Assembly: GCF_024169245.1 (NCBI RefSeq)
Contig: NZ_JALJWP010000001.1
Span: 1,054,001 to 1,118,000, forward strand
Direction of reading: 5' to 3'
DNA: 64,000 nucleotides
Origin: Pseudomonas koreensis
Lineage (GTDB): Bacteria; Pseudomonadota; Gammaproteobacteria; Pseudomonadales; Pseudomonadaceae
The notes beneath the pieces were generated by a model. That model searched no databases and was not told the origin of the DNA. It worked only from the letters and a program-made list of their open reading frames with translations. The translations under genes and the position numbers were made by a program. Below are positions 25,433 through 31,438 of the stretch, in pieces (position 1 is the stretch's first letter; every line of letters starts with the position of its first letter).

Positions 25433-25783
25433 CTGAAGCCTCCCGCCCGTTCCGTTGATAGGGGTAGACCGAGATTGCCGGGGAATTACTTCCGAGGGAA
25501 GGCGATTAAAAAGAAAAAACCGCTAATTTCTCGATAGGCCGAAGCTGAGGCCAGGTTGCGAATACCTACAAAAAATATTTAGCAATAACAATGAATTGTC
25601 CGCGCTCTATGAATCGCCTCACAAACTTCTCGGTATTTTTCCTACATCGACCCGAATTTAATCACGCACTACTACAGGACGCGTCTGAATTGAAGTTATT
25701 TCCGTCCTCGTTAGGATTCATAACGTAACACGTCAAAAACTTATGCCATCAAGGCAAACACTAATTTACGTCAAGGCTCAACT
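25433..25783. other. AT-rich intergenic region upstream of the lanthipeptide cluster
   Basis: This 351-base gap shifts from GC-rich to clearly AT-rich near 25500, marking the left edge of the island. It should carry divergent promoters for the acetyl-CoA hydrolase-family gene and the peptide gene. One possible promoter is listed separately. A 45-codon frame at 25591-25728 has no ribosome-binding site and was not called. Confidence 0.6.
25690..25717 (+). promoter_or_regulatory. Candidate promoter of the peptide precursor gene
   Basis: TTGAAG (25690-25695) and TAGGAT (25712-25717) are spaced 16 bases apart, a plausible sigma-70 pair about 65 bases before the precursor ATG. No known regulator site was recognised. 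Confidence 0.35.
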
Positions 25784-25966
25784 ATGGAAATCGACTTCTT
25801 AGCACTCCGTCGTGCCCGAGCACGCGTTTTAAACTCAACGGCACCCATCTCAACTCTGGCAATTCAAGCGTTCAGTAACTTGAGCGCTGCAAGCAGCGGT
25901 TCGCGACCGTGTACCAGCTGCTGTTCACAGTGTTGGCAAGGATGCTGCTACGCGACCTACATGTAA
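25784..25966 (+). CDS. lanA: Putative class II lanthipeptide precursor
   Basis: A 60-aa peptide. Residues 1-39 look like a leader (MEIDFLALRRARARVLN, then STAPISTLAIQAFSNLS), and the C-terminal part SRPCTSCCSQCWQGCCYATY has Cys at 43, 46, 47, 50, 54 and 55, with Ser/Thr at 37, 38, 40, 44, 45 and 48. That mix of Ser/Thr and Cys suits lanthionine formation. There is no GG or GA cleavage motif; the only Gly near the junction is Gly39. An AAGG box lies 7 bases before the ATG. It sits 57 bases before the LanM gene on the same strand. No homologue was recognised; calling it the substrate is inference from position and composition. Confidence 0.75.
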   Translation: MEIDFLALRRARARVLNSTAPISTLAIQAFSNLSAASSGSRPCTSCCSQCWQGCCYATYM

Positions 25967-25975
25967 ATAAAATTT

Positions 25976-26002
25976 GGGCGGCACTCGAACCGAGTGGCGC
26001 CC
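25976..26002 (+). promoter_or_regulatory. Hairpin between the precursor and LanM genes
   Basis: GGGCGGCACTCG pairs with CGAGTGGCGCCC across an AAC loop: 12 positions with a single G-G mismatch. No T-run follows, so it is not a full terminator. It may stabilise the short precursor mRNA or lower read-through into the synthetase gene. Confidence 0.7.
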
Positions 26003-26023
26003 TGACTTGTTAAGGATAAAACA

Positions 26024-28954
26024 TTGAAAAATCCTAAAGATTTTTTAAGTGGAACAACGCCATTTAAACGCGGCTACACTACTGACTGCCCGGTCTGGCC
26101 CTACCTGTCTTATTACATCTTCCATATCGAAGAACAATTTCCAAAATCGTGTGATAACGACGAAGCATTGAAATCAACTGTTATCAATGGCTTTGTAACC
26201 AACCTTGCAGCCAGACTTACTAACGCCGCCAACAATGTCTTAGTAACGGAAAAAATAATATTTGAAAAGACCACCTGCAGCAAAATGGAGACTTCCGCAT
26301 ATTTCAAATTGATAAGTGAAAACAAAAACTACCTCCTCGACATCATTAGCGCCTACCCCGAACTGGATCGAGTCCTGACCAAACTGTCAAAAAATTTTAT
26401 TGAATTCACGGCACAGTTAATCCTCGCACTTATCGAAGACAGACAAGATATCAACGAAAAATTTAATATACCGACCGGTTCCAAACTTTCCTCCGTTGAG
26501 GTTTCTTCCAGCGAAACTCACAATGGATCTAGAACCGTTTGCATACTTTCTTTTGATTCTATCAAGATAGTTTATAAACCGAGAAATTTGGAACTTGAAG
26601 CTGAAGCATCTGATTTACTGCTGCATTTGAGCCATGCTGCTGGAGATGGTTACGAAAACTGGAAATTGCCAAGGTATCTTGTAAAAAAAGAACACGGTTG
26701 GTCAGAGCATACACCTCAAACGCAGGCAGAAAGCGAAGCCGAAGTTTCTTCTTATTTTAAAAGAGCTGGATTTCTTTTAGGTTACTGCACCACCTTTATG
26801 GCCGCCGATATTACCTCTGACAATTTGATTGCACACGGCCCAAGCCCTATTCCAATCGATCTCGAAACTATTTTCTACAGCACTCTTAATATTGAAACCT
26901 TTCCAAAAGAAGTACGCTGGAATGTCACCCAAACAAGCATACTTCCAAATTGGACTTGGAAAGGCACAGACGGTATAGGTGTAGACCTGAGCGCATTAGG
27001 TGGACTATCGGAGCAATATGTCAGCTTAAATCTGTATCAACATTTGGAAGACGAGAGTGGACAGAGCCAGTTTGGCATGGACGGAGTGAAAATATTTCCG
27101 AACCAAAACGTTTTGCATATCAATGGAAAAGCGGCACAGCCGTGGGACTACGAAAAAGAAATCATTGAAGGCTTGAACAAATTATTTTCCCTTGTGAATA
27201 GTAATCAGGCTTCAATCATCGAAATTATTGACTCTCTCAGAGGAAGAAGAAATAGGTATATCCCGAGGCCGACTGCCACATATCATTACGCTATCCAATG
27301 CTCCTTGCATGCGACCTTGATGCGGTGCACTAAAAAACGTACGGCCTTTTTGGAGAACATTCTTAATAATGACACCGCCCCTGCCATAGGTTTTCTCAAC
27401 GCCGAGATCGCCGCATGCCTGGATTTAGACGTACCTTTTGCTCAGGGACTAACTGGGGGCCTTGAATTCTATGAATCAAGATACGACGGCTCTGGGCACC
27501 TAGATAGCAATGATTATATAAATGGAATAGATAACAGCGTCCAATATGTCAAAACACTAAACAGAAATAGAATCGCATTTGAAGAAAACTTGACTGCGAA
27601 TACTCTATTAGCAATGAGAAATATGTATGAGCATGGTAATAAGCTGACGGAATACAAATTCAAACAAAACGACGACCTGAACGACCCTCGGTATTCAAAT
27701 ATAGACGAGATCATTGACAAACTCAGGTTATCATCAGAGATCAATGCGAAGTTGATCAATGAGATGTTAGCCACCGAAATTTCCAGTAATGGGCTTTGGC
27801 TAGGATTTCATTCCTCACCTGGCGGTTACATGGAATTCTCCGAGTTGGGGGACGATTTCTACTACGGATTGTCTGGTATTCTCTACGGCTGCGTAGTCGC
27901 TGCCAGCCGCAGCAGCGCTGTAGATAAAGCCTTGGTAGGCGAGCTGCTAAATGCTTGCTACAGCAGAATAGCCCAAAAACTTTCGAATAAAGGCACGCAT
28001 CTAGGTGGATTTCACTTTGGCTTATCATCTGCAATTGTACCGCTACTGATAAGCTTAGACTATTTTGATGACAAAAGAGGAAGTGAACTACTACAACTCT
28101 ACAAGAGATATGTTGAAGAGGTACTCAGTGAGCCATGGTGGCAAAAATACTTTTGGGGGTCAGACTTTCTATCAGGCATGTTCGGAACTCTAAACGTACT
28201 GACACATATATTCACCCTAACGGAAGACGAACAATTTTCTGATTTAGCGAAATCCTTATATGGCAAATTAGAGCCAGAACTCACGCTTATAGACGGACGT
28301 ACGCTAGCAACATTCGATAATGCAGTTACTACGAGAAGCGATGCTTTATTAAGCGGCTTGTCTCATGGAATTATGGGGTGCGCATATTCACTATTTTATT
28401 TTAACGATCTGATTGCAAAAAAAGATTCAGTCAATAAGATATTCCTAGGATTTCTATCTTGGGAGCTCGAACAATACGATGAAACTATCGAAAATTGGCA
28501 TGACTATAGAAAACGTTCAGCATCAAGTGCGGGCGAGTTTTCATGGAGTCATGGCTTACCAGGAAACTACTTGGCAATAGATTATTTCGCCAAAAATGGG
28601 GTGCCGCTGGCAACGGAGTTCTTGGAGAAACATCCATCCAAAACTGTATTTTCTTACTGTGATCTAGAAAAAAGAAAGCGACCTATTAACGATTCTTTAT
28701 GTCACGGCGCTTTTGGAATTCTAAATATCATTAAAAAGCTTTCACCAGAATCGCTCAATGACCCAAAAATATTTCTATGGTCCAACATCATCAATCTCAG
28801 CGAACAGAGCAGTCGTGAACTTAGAACAAAGACTGCTGATCCTTTAGGTTTGTGGATCGGACGAGTGGGATCGTTAATCGGAGCAATTGGGCTAATCGAG
28901 CATGAGTATGAATTTCCATTCCTCCCCCACCAGATGGAATTCTTAAATTCATGA
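26024..28954 (+). CDS. lanM: Class II lanthipeptide synthetase LanM (atypical)
   Basis: A 976-aa LanM protein: an N-terminal dehydratase domain (DUF4135, about 80-600) and a C-terminal LanC-like cyclase (about 620-960). The dehydratase has VYKPR (Lys185), IPIDLETIF (Asp279, Glu281) and RPTATYHY, but the usual D-x-H-x-x-N reads D262-I-T264-S-D-N267, with Thr for His. The cyclase keeps GLSHG and SLCHG (Cys893, His894), yet the first zinc Cys motif W-C-x-G reads W841-S842-H-G. The enzyme would phosphorylate and eliminate Ser/Thr and, if the cyclase works, form thioethers. The start is TTG with a TAAGGA box 7 bases before. It is AT-rich with many AGA, ATA and TTA codons. Its stop overlaps the next gene by 4 bases. 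Confidence 0.9.
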   Translation: MKNPKDFLSGTTPFKRGYTTDCPVWPYLSYYIFHIEEQFPKSCDNDEALKSTVINGFVTNLAARLTNAANNVLVTEKIIFEKTTCSKMETSAYFKLISENKNYLLDIISAYPELDRVLTKLSKNFIEFTAQLILALIEDRQDINEKFNIPTGSKLSSVEVSSSETHNGSRTVCILSFDSIKIVYKPRNLELEAEASDLLLHLSHAAGDGYENWKLPRYLVKKEHGWSEHTPQTQAESEAEVSSYFKRAGFLLGYCTTFMAADITSDNLIAHGPSPIPIDLETIFYSTLNIETFPKEVRWNVTQTSILPNWTWKGTDGIGVDLSALGGLSEQYVSLNLYQHLEDESGQSQFGMDGVKIFPNQNVLHINGKAAQPWDYEKEIIEGLNKLFSLVNSNQASIIEIIDSLRGRRNRYIPRPTATYHYAIQCSLHATLMRCTKKRTAFLENILNNDTAPAIGFLNAEIAACLDLDVPFAQGLTGGLEFYESRYDGSGHLDSNDYINGIDNSVQYVKTLNRNRIAFEENLTANTLLAMRNMYEHGNKLTEYKFKQNDDLNDPRYSNIDEIIDKLRLSSEINAKLINEMLATEISSNGLWLGFHSSPGGYMEFSELGDDFYYGLSGILYGCVVAASRSSAVDKALVGELLNACYSRIAQKLSNKGTHLGGFHFGLSSAIVPLLISLDYFDDKRGSELLQLYKRYVEEVLSEPWWQKYFWGSDFLSGMFGTLNVLTHIFTLTEDEQFSDLAKSLYGKLEPELTLIDGRTLATFDNAVTTRSDALLSGLSHGIMGCAYSLFYFNDLIAKKDSVNKIFLGFLSWELEQYDETIENWHDYRKRSASSAGEFSWSHGLPGNYLAIDYFAKNGVPLATEFLEKHPSKTVFSYCDLEKRKRPINDSLCHGAFGILNIIKKLSPESLNDPKIFLWSNIINLSEQSSRELRTKTADPLGLWIGRVGSLIGAIGLIEHEYEFPFLPHQMEFLNS

Positions 28955-29829
28955 AAAATAATCTAATATTATGCTGCTTTGGTGTAGGCATTGCGGCTCT
29001 AACAAGCGCATCACCCTATTTGATTGGCAACTCCATCAATCTTTATTTGGGAGGCGACAGCTTGTATTTATACACGCTCGCAGGTGCTGCGTTCTTTCTT
29101 ATCGCCACTCCCCCATTCAAGCTGGCAGCCAACATCCATCTACAAAAAACCGCCTCCAAAACCAGATTTATTCTGAAGAAGGCAATTCTGAATCATCTAC
29201 TTGGCGGAAGCTTCGGGCATACTCAAAAACCAGGCGAGTGGATCGAACTGATTGATGGCGACGTTGATGGCTCGATGTATTTGTATCACTCGCTATATTT
29301 TGATATTTCGCTGAACTGCAGCATCATTATCGTTGCGCTTTTCATAACCGCCTTCTACTACCCGCTTTTGGCGCTCGCGCCACTTAGCGGCCTCCTCTAT
29401 GCTTTAGTTGCACATCTTGCTACTCGAAGAGCCAGTAGATCGCTATATGATGAGTACGTACAGCATAACACCGTAACCATCGGTGCTATCTGTGAGCATT
29501 TATATAATGCAAAACCATATACAAACAGGGCCAAGCTAGATATAAAAAATATCGAACGCCTCGCTTTTCGCTCAAGCCTGAAAGCATCGACTTTCGAATC
29601 AATATCAAGCTCATGTTATCCAGTGGCGATAGTGGTTCTATTATTAGTGTCGGCCCATCTGCTAAGCGCCGGAAATTCTAATATAGGTGCCATTTTTGCC
29701 TCAGCCATCTATCTTGAGCGCGTGCTGAGCCCTGCGACATCGCTGATATCCATCTACTACTCAAGCAGAGAGGCATCTTACAGACGTAGTCGGATTCGCG
29801 GCTATGGACTACAGCACGAGGGGCATTGA
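28951..29829 (+). CDS. ABC-exporter-like transmembrane protein 1 (no ATPase domain)
   Basis: A 292-aa membrane protein with about six hydrophobic segments (near 3-22, 33-55, 110-145, 215-235 and 240-260) and a cytoplasmic GEWIELIDGDVDGSMYLYHS, which resembles the GE-x-x-x-x-x-x-x-DVD motif after TM2 of type I ABC exporters. It lacks an ATPase domain and a C39 peptidase domain, so it is only the transmembrane half. Its ATG overlaps the lanM stop (ATGA), implying coupled translation and a role in exporting, or giving immunity to, the modified peptide. Confidence 0.72.
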   Translation: MKNNLILCCFGVGIAALTSASPYLIGNSINLYLGGDSLYLYTLAGAAFFLIATPPFKLAANIHLQKTASKTRFILKKAILNHLLGGSFGHTQKPGEWIELIDGDVDGSMYLYHSLYFDISLNCSIIIVALFITAFYYPLLALAPLSGLLYALVAHLATRRASRSLYDEYVQHNTVTIGAICEHLYNAKPYTNRAKLDIKNIERLAFRSSLKASTFESISSSCYPVAIVVLLLVSAHLLSAGNSNIGAIFASAIYLERVLSPATSLISIYYSSREASYRRSRIRGYGLQHEGH

Positions 29830-29832
29830 ACC

Positions 29833-30714
29833 ATGTTTATTTGCCTGCAAAAAAATCTGACCGTTTTTTTTCTGTCCGTGATTTGCCTTACATTAGCAGC
29901 CGCATGTCAATTGTTGATACCATCAGTCGTCGCCAAAAGCCTGACGGCTCTCACCACTGGTGCGATTAGCAATGAGGTTTACTTCGTCCTTATCGCTGTT
30001 TTTTTAACCAAGCTTTCAACGCAAACTCTGGGTAACTCCTATGCGACGCTCATGGAAGCGAAGTCTCGTTTTGTGCTTATCAGTTTCATTGTGCATGATG
30101 AGCGGCCCTCTCCATTATGTTCTCGGGTGACAATGATTAAAGAAGATGCTGAGAAAATTGCTTCCGTCATTCATGACGCAATTCATCTCATCGGCTCCTG
30201 CATTTTGACATTGTCCGCTGCCTTTATTCTGCTTAGGGAAAACATCTACTTCTTCCTGCCAATCGCCTCAACCATTGTATTGACTTGTGTGCAATTGAGA
30301 TTTGCCAAGCCTATAATCCAGCGGCTATATGCAGCAGAAATGTCGAAAGAGGATTTGTACAAAGATTCGCTTATTAACACGTTCAAAGTTTCCAGCGACG
30401 GCGAACAAAGTAAAATGCAACTCATCAGAAGCTTTGGATATTTGAGGGGCACAGTACGAGCACGCTACAAATATCAGAAAGCAAGCGCCATCCAATCCTT
30501 CTGGCCGGAAATGGCCATCTCGGCCGGGACGGTATCTGTCATTTTATTCAGCGCCGCTGCCACCCCGGAATTATTTGGCGAGCGTCTTATTGCCTGTCTC
30601 GGTTATATCGGAATCTTTACCATGGCCAGCACGAGCTCGATAAGACTCGGGATAGCGATGATCGGCGTGAAGGTTTCAATCGACAGAATCTTCAGAGGGT
30701 ATCGATATGAATGA
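29833..30714 (+). CDS. ABC-exporter-like transmembrane protein 2 (no ATPase domain)
   Basis: A 293-aa membrane protein with about six hydrophobic helices (near 9-30, 47-63, 112-130, 135-155, 225-245 and 250-272). The helix layout matches its upstream neighbour, though the sequences share little, so the pair could form a heterodimeric transmembrane core. There is no Walker motif. The ATG follows the previous stop by 3 bases, and the 3' end overlaps the ATPase gene by 8 bases. AT-rich like the rest of the island. Family assignment is by hydropathy and context. Confidence 0.65.
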   Translation: MFICLQKNLTVFFLSVICLTLAAACQLLIPSVVAKSLTALTTGAISNEVYFVLIAVFLTKLSTQTLGNSYATLMEAKSRFVLISFIVHDERPSPLCSRVTMIKEDAEKIASVIHDAIHLIGSCILTLSAAFILLRENIYFFLPIASTIVLTCVQLRFAKPIIQRLYAAEMSKEDLYKDSLINTFKVSSDGEQSKMQLIRSFGYLRGTVRARYKYQKASAIQSFWPEMAISAGTVSVILFSAAATPELFGERLIACLGYIGIFTMASTSSIRLGIAMIGVKVSIDRIFRGYRYE

Positions 30715-31426
30715 TCTGTTTATCCAACAAATACGCCTGAAGCCAGACATGACGGCGGCTGACTTTCTACATGACCTCTTTCCGCTTGAATTCAGCAGCT
30801 TAATAACTGTTTTTATCGGAGAAAATGGCTCTGGAAAATCCACTTTACTTGAAGCTGTTGCCATCAAGTTGGGTTGCAATCCAGAAGGCGGTGGGAAGAA
30901 TTTCAATTTCTCGACCGAGAACACCCATTCGAAACTGCATGAAACCCTGACGCTCTCAAAAGGCTACCGAAGGGAGAAGGACGTTTTTTTCTACAGAGCG
31001 GAAACCTTCTACAACTTGAGCACTACGATCCGCAAGCTCGATGCAGAGCCTAGCTTTGATCCTGAAATCAAGACCTATTACGGTGGCGTGGATTTGCATT
31101 GCATGTCGCACGGTGAAGCAATGGAAGCGCTCTTCCACCACCGATTCAAAGCCCAGGGACTGTACCTGCTCGACGAGCCGGAAGCATCGTTATCCCCGGT
31201 GAGGCAATTGGTGTTTATCAACCGGATAATGGAGCTGTCGCGCGGCGGCGCGCAATTCATCATCGCTACTCACTCTCCCCTCATCATGTCGATCCCGGGC
31301 TGTGATCTGAGGCAGATATCCGGAGGGCGCTGCGAGCAAATAGCCGCCGAAGATACTGACGCTTATGCCGTCTACAAAGCCGTGCTCAATTCTGCCGGCG
31401 CTTACATCACGAAAAACATGCTGTGA
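30707..31426 (+). CDS. Stand-alone ABC-like ATPase (AAA_21 / COG3910 type)
   Basis: A 239-aa soluble ATPase: Walker A GENGSGKST (about 38-46), an ABC-like signature SHGEAMEAL, Walker B LYLLDEPEAS and an H-loop ATHSPL. The canonical LSGGQ loop of ABC exporters is missing; the SHGE motif fits the COG3910 group of predicted ATPases, which often occur alone. Its start overlaps the second membrane gene by 8 bases, suggesting it powers this pair. The second half is more GC-rich than the first, so it may be partly ancestral chromosome sequence. Role in export is inference. Confidence 0.75.
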   Translation: MNDLFIQQIRLKPDMTAADFLHDLFPLEFSSLITVFIGENGSGKSTLLEAVAIKLGCNPEGGGKNFNFSTENTHSKLHETLTLSKGYRREKDVFFYRAETFYNLSTTIRKLDAEPSFDPEIKTYYGGVDLHCMSHGEAMEALFHHRFKAQGLYLLDEPEASLSPVRQLVFINRIMELSRGGAQFIIATHSPLIMSIPGCDLRQISGGRCEQIAAEDTDAYAVYKAVLNSAGAYITKNML

Positions 31427-31438
31427 GATTGCAGGCAC

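Follow-up and report, generated by a model that had tools for sequence, protein, structure and literature searches.

Which product can be expected from a cluster of lanthipeptide type in a Pseudomonas chromosome, and what do the membrane and ATPase genes at its end do? The question is raised by a locus of Pseudomonas koreensis (assembly GCF_024169245.1), analysed here in a window of 64,000 nucleotides (contig NZ_JALJWP010000001.1, positions 1,054,001 to 1,118,000); coordinates are those of the window. An earlier note on this DNA had described five closely spaced genes on one strand, and the five open reading frames (ORFs) were found as described, all on the + strand, at 25784..31426, with a 4-base overlap, a 3-base gap and an 8-base overlap among the last four. 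The 60-amino-acid (aa) ORF starts with ATG and the 976-aa ORF with TTG. Our analysis indicates a genuine variant class II lanthipeptide-type cluster, whose last three genes (TMD1, TMD2 and the ATPase gene, hereafter the triad) likely form an export and immunity pump of unusual make-up. We give a slightly better than even chance to the full proposal that this five-gene ribosomal-peptide cluster makes and exports a class II-like lanthionine-type peptide, with the triad as export and self-protection pump. The features are as follows.

25480..31428, no strand: inserted segment, delimited by blastn against loci without the cluster, junction sequences and gap lengths
25637..25703, + strand: conserved upstream block, likely part of a promoter region (local alignment)
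25784..25966, + strand: precursor peptide, 60 aa (alignment, ratio of nonsynonymous to synonymous substitution rates (dN/dS), hydroxyl-keeping columns)
25976..26002, + strand: RNA hairpin between precursor and lanM (−21.7 kcal/mol, z −4.2)
26024..28954, + strand: LanM-like synthetase, 976 aa, DUF4135 plus LanC-like; E164, T264 and S842 replace Asp, His and Cys
28951..29829, + strand: TMD1, 292 aa, membrane half of an ATP-binding cassette (ABC) exporter without ATPase domain (PF00664, Sav1866 profile)
29833..30714, + strand: TMD2, 293 aa, second exporter membrane half without ATPase domain (predicted fold)
30707..31426, + strand: free-standing AAA_21 ATPase, 239 aa, predicted pump motor (PF13304/PF13175 above cut-off)

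The profile searches agreed with the earlier assignment of the 976-aa protein as a LanM-type synthetase. It matched DUF4135 (E 1.7e-74), LANC_like (E 3.7e-27) and the LanM family TIGR03897 (392 bits, cut-off 304), and its predicted fold is that of LanM. Membership of class III (LanKC) or class IV (LanL) was rejected on the NCBIfam scores (13.2 bits vs. 575 and 12.8 vs. 650). The protein and its clade differ from the class II synthetases LicM2 and CylM (TIGR03897) at three positions, each replaced in 22/22 aligned clade members. Ser842 replaces the first zinc-ligand Cys, which gives a Ser-Cys-His site in place of Cys-Cys-His; Thr264 replaces the kinase-site His (CylM H349), and Glu164 replaces the lyase-site Asp (CylM D252), the CylM positions being mapped by spacing and LicM2 alignment. 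With the latter two replacements, the set of CylM kinase and lyase residues is not complete. Twelve other mapped residues are preserved in all 22 members. Cys893 and His894 of the zinc site and the acid/base residues D714 and H781 show no replacement in 22/22. Judged by these residues, the 976-aa synthetase is a non-standard LanM, from a clade without one zinc ligand and without the kinase-site His.

The signature-bearing LanMs form one clade in a tree of 39 rows, which is a quick tree with long-branch warnings. Of the 45 homologues, 27 are in the alignment (A1), from which fragments, near-copies and some distant sequences were excluded. For the remaining 18 the check was by motif alone, and P0029 and P0030 were rechecked alongside; seven of these 18 belong to the clade by identity, and the signature agrees wherever it is covered. 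The motif expression missed the second zinc motif of P0025, which inspection by eye gave as CHG. The closest homologue (92% identity) is named P. moraviensis, and several clade homologues are metagenome proteins without a named host. Among 398 sampled Pseudomonas genomes, 17 further genomes hold a more distant LanM (20–30% over the aligned parts). Of the 21 distant-LanM loci fetched, 10 loci from 9 genomes showed WCHG and CHG, and the motif expression found no such pair in the other 11. Outside the genus, 6/368 other genomes of the class sample had a LanM match at 24–31% identity. Two genomes of other families in a 144-genome sample of relatives matched at 35% and 23% over parts; the 35% match lies outside the clade, because the canonical DxH and DxH lyase motif is present.

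We propose that the variant LanM would act on the 60-aa precursor, dehydrating conserved Ser/Thr and joining them in rings to some of the six Cys. The kinase/lyase half is probably functional: the other mapped residues are preserved, and the available text of PMC4550811 describes slow but continued substrate modification by CylM H349A. The Ser-Cys-His cyclase site may support ring closure through a rebuilt metal site or base catalysis. Ser also fills the first zinc-ligand position of the class III cyclase ThurKC, but there the remaining two positions carry Phe and Asp, the kinase is of Ser/Thr type and the lyase domain is separate (PMC10604976, available text). LanMbC of the dehydrazoles (CcaM) resembles the window LanM in its dehydratase half and altered cyclase zinc site; as described in the available part of PMC10676384, it has no zinc-binding residues and is paired with a YcaO. 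Membership of the LanMbC/dehydrazole group was rejected, because the window LanM keeps two of the three zinc ligands and no YcaO is found among the five cluster proteins. An alternative is that the enzyme is a dehydratase only, whose damaged cyclase half yields no lanthionine and leaves the Cys free, disulfide-bonded or cyclised without an enzyme. Replacement of the first zinc ligand in all 22 clade members speaks for it, and so does the distant relative in G386, which has no cyclase motifs and reads WAHG and ATG in place of WCHG/CHG. We regard this alternative as unlikely: C893, H894, D714 and H781 are kept throughout the clade, and the Ser-bearing class III cyclase closes rings without zinc (PMC10604976, available text).

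The Cys-rich precursor that had been suspected was confirmed by comparison. Six Cys are invariant across 7/7 orthologues (alignment A5), Ser/Thr occurs in all seven at positions 40, 44, 45, 48 and 58, and Ser/Thr exchanges at positions 34, 40 and 48 preserve the hydroxyl in all seven. For the four closest orthologues, five of the six pairwise dN/dS values were 0.03–0.05; the sixth, 0.09, is based on only 4 changes. These values point to strong purifying selection on the precursor. A precursor with a leader and a Ser/Thr/Cys core thus adjoins LanM, and its core pattern occurred in 5/398 Pseudomonas genomes, the same five that carry a clade LanM; the scan would miss diverged cores. The reversed-pattern control gave 0 among the matches listed, and the precursor search returned one truncated match only. 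The reading of the 60-aa peptide as a chance ORF was rejected on the dN/dS constraint and the tie of the core pattern to genomes with a clade LanM. In 7/7 loci a hairpin lies at the same place between precursor and lanM (z −2.0 to −4.2), with 0–7 of 200 shuffles equally good. The promoter scan found no consensus sigma-70 site upstream of the precursor.

The earlier note had listed two membrane proteins and an ATPase, and this can be refined to two ABC exporter halves without ATPase domain and a free-standing ATPase, a separable module. TMD1 matched PF00664 (34.3 bits, cut-off 28) and, by profile, Sav1866 (E 2e-7). TMD2 had no Pfam match and no sensible sequence match in the PDB, and its model (predicted local distance difference test score 83.5) matched the membrane domains of MsbA, PCAT1 and McjD. 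The type IV ABC exporter membrane domain was therefore recognised in TMD1 by PF00664 and profile, and in TMD2 by fold only. Profile comparison of TMD1 with TMD2 showed no significant similarity, and profile searches found no ATPase domain in either. On sequence and model, TMD1 and TMD2 are the paired membrane halves of an ABC exporter, both lacking an ATPase domain. Neither is a LanT: in the Pfam and NCBIfam searches, their membrane domains carried no fused peptidase and ATPase domains. The statement that the cluster has no regulator, LanT or LanP stands; an immunity function is likely for the triad, though it is of no known lan type.

The ATPase has its Walker A, SHGE, LDEPE and THSP motifs invariant in 13/13 aligned sequences. 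We propose that two ATPase copies under the TMD1/TMD2 pair would replace the missing ABC domains. The order TMD1-TMD2-ATPase is kept in 7/7 sampled genomes holding both halves, and the junction differs among them, with an overlap of 20 bases at one extreme and a gap of 1 base at the other. McjD has an immunity role. TMD1 and TMD2 resemble McjD and related exporters in membrane-domain fold and in the export and self-protection proposed here; McjD bears its own ABC ATPase domain, whereas in the window pump both halves are bare and the AAA_21 ATPase is a protein of its own. LanFEG immunity transporters are encoded by three genes that stand apart from biosynthesis, one for an ATPase and two for membrane proteins. 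The triad is likewise a three-gene module of one ATPase and two membrane proteins, but its membrane halves show the type IV exporter fold and its ATPase is, by best Pfam match, not an ABC-type cassette.

The cluster lies between genes that we take to encode an acetyl-CoA hydrolase and a cytochrome c-type protein, and these two genes adjoin each other in genomes without the cluster. The acquisition proposed in the earlier note was borne out by this empty site in sister Pseudomonas genomes, and the noted AT-richness by a GC content of 0.444 against 0.562–0.626 in 94 window stretches of equal length. Homology to the empty site ends at about 25480–25490 and restarts at about 31428–31433 (blastn, junction sequences). 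In six loci (L045, L047, L048, L050, L052, L053), 23–38 bp replace the cluster, and no target duplication was seen at the junctions. The same site is occupied in L002, L003, L004 (the same contig as G231) and G314; named loci with the same cluster are from Pseudomonas khorasanensis, P. anatoliensis and Pseudomonas sp. AKS31. The acquisition is old, since this site holds the five genes in other Pseudomonas species with LanM identity down to 56% (G314). The insertion is thus a clean, old, AT-rich acquisition.

Three other cluster-free loci (L044, L046, L049) hold 190–245 bp of other, partly repeat-like sequence at the site, so the intergenic spot seems insertion-prone. The cluster is placed elsewhere in G006 and G169, flanked by direct repeats that could permit loop-out. 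They measure 105 bp at 99% in G006 (L036 7227-7331 and 13633-13737, oriented copy) and 194 bp at 96% in G169 (L037 6057-6250 and 12464-12657, oriented copy). Plasmid carriage was rejected, as 150/72,556 plasmid records matched, all below 60% identity, with the 15 listed rows at 21.6–24.0%. Phage carriage was rejected with a single match among 50,697 phage records, at 21.9% identity.

The distribution of the genes among the 398 Pseudomonas genomes separates the triad from the peptide genes. The ATPase is open, without stops, with an identity of at least 60% in 10 genomes, and is reduced to a fragment in G037. Only 2 of these 11, G000 and G006, have a full-length, open LanM. In G231 LanM is shortened by about 125 residues, active-site residues included; in G314 a stop falls at codon 565, and in G169 the gene is interrupted; the first piece in G314 is identical to P0028 (MULTISPECIES, 4 member sequences), a form recorded more than once. 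LanM was not found in the other six (G098, G300, G002, G364, G368 and G037). TMD1 and TMD2 are both open in 7/11. The ATPase tree, built from 12 members plus an outgroup, requires the LanM state to change 4 times, and well-supported branches force 2 of these changes.

At the same site, G098 and G300 have exactly TMD1-TMD2-ATPase; the three genes are intact, and precursor and LanM are missing. The upstream block stands 5′ of TMD1 in both, with a score of 62 in G098 (best of 500 shuffles 35) and, weaker, 31 in G300 (best of 500 shuffles 30). In G300, the sequence ahead of TMD1 ends in PHQMEYPSQ-stop and overlaps TMD1 by ATGA, just as PHQMEFLNS-stop does at the end of LanM (2/20000 shuffles as good). 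From the kept block and this C-terminal scar, G300 most likely lost precursor and LanM by deletion, and the block in G098 points to the same event. The triad would both export the product and confer self-immunity, hence its retention by non-producers. Genes for export only are useless without the peptide and protective genes are useful, so retention suggests immunity, most simply by efflux. An immunity function is therefore likely, as read from gene retention. The triad might instead be an exporter only, surviving without LanM through unfinished decay or chance and not through selection for immunity. The cases are few, the LanM losses could be recent, and the triad itself is decaying in G002 and G037. 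This seems improbable to us, because the open triad occurs in two separate lineages (G098 and G300), the dN/dS between window and G098 is 0.17 for TMD1, 0.14 for TMD2 and 0.12 for the ATPase, and the ATPase is open far more often (10/11) than LanM is whole (2/11).

The same retention bears on the nature of the product. Instead of an antimicrobial, the product could be a metal-binding Cys peptide (metallophore or metal buffer), whose metal complex the pump would handle. This would suit the six invariant Cys and also the core, which does not differ among the four closest species, an unusual state in a diversifying weapon. We consider it very unlikely, as the cluster has no metal-uptake, regulator or MNIO/DUF692 gene, and a pump kept without the peptide genes suits immunity better.

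Several observations weigh against the proposed producer with an export and immunity pump. One of the three zinc ligands is lost, and the product, its dehydration and rings, and its transport are all predictions; the product chemistry, the ATPase pairing of the pump and the immunity are what we infer from the genes. LanM is broken in 3/5 of the sampled genomes that possess it, so the system may simply be decaying. No LanM remnant was found by alignment in G098 or G002, and the absence in G098 counts here. The G300 scar was not significant by free local alignment (63/500 shuffles as good). The upstream block of G002 is weak, with 6/500 shuffles as good against the window and 276/500 against L003. 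Solitary ATPases occur in G002 (with a TMD2 remnant), G364 and G368, to which a plain motor role is ill-fitting. Lastly, the clusters of G386 and G105 (L038 6489-12678 and L039; LanM 25–27%) hold a precursor-like ORF (NCTQC...CCY), LanM (ending early at 801 aa in G105), a complete ATPase-bearing exporter and, in addition, an AAA_21 ATPase, so the ATPase need not be the motor.

An extra ATPase thus recurs as a partner in such gene sets, whether it serves as the motor or protects separately. The window ATPase is presumably of the COG3910 type; the profile searches covered Pfam, NCBIfam and PADLOC. If it is a separate protective or regulatory factor, comparable to the PtuA-, AriA- and OLD-type defence ATPases, the exporter halves would borrow a cellular ABC domain. 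The open solitary ATPases of G364 and G368 and the additional ATPase of G386 and G105 fit this possibility. The solved structures closest to the window ATPase are the retron/PtuA and AriA ATPases, and PADLOC gave AriA as best match. In the available text of PMC9973855, TransAAP places COG3910, with SMC, RecF and UvrA, in a negative decision example for ABC cassettes. We find it doubtful, though somewhat less so than an exporter-only triad, since the exporter halves are encoded with no other ATPase domain and the TMD1-TMD2-ATPase order is constant, if with a variable junction. A defence system as such was rejected, because PADLOC matched the ATPase only, through its shared ATPase stretches.

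The ATPase also occurs in other surroundings. Open solitary relatives in G364 and G368 (L101, L102; 62–63% identity) lie between thioesterase-like and antiporter-like genes, with a GC content of 0.48 in GC-rich surroundings and a trace of the TMD2 end kept in G368. Two further genomes hold a 46–47% relative in another setting. G048 and G374 (L104, L105) have a 248-aa relative at 47%, with a GC content of 0.41 and no lanthipeptide genes in the listed stretch.

Class II lanthipeptide clusters of Pseudomonas have already been predicted by genome mining (PMC8719888, PMC9059233, PMC8704066). They resemble the present cluster in a LanM plus precursor or in the class II label, and the available text of the three papers gives no sequences for them. 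The other Pseudomonas LanMs are canonical (WCHG/CHG) where readable, so these reports may concern that group. No account of the present cluster was found in the literature searched, in which subscription journals are mostly outside coverage, and the available text of PMC12715929 and PMC7268733 does not treat Pseudomonas clusters.

We tentatively suggest a Gram-negative lanthipeptide branch that combines a LanM with a Ser-Cys-His cyclase and a His-less kinase with an ABC-less exporter powered by an SMC/COG3910-type ATPase, with the entire pump acting as a detachable immunity cassette that is retained by non-producing Pseudomonas against producers. The clade has changed its zinc site and kinase-site His together and kept the rest, and so offers a natural test of the need for those residues. 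If the pump is as proposed, it would be an exporter driven by an ATPase family not normally counted as a transporter cassette. One chromosomal site is empty, full, pump-only or decaying across species, which makes the loss of production with likely retention of immunity directly testable in Pseudomonas.

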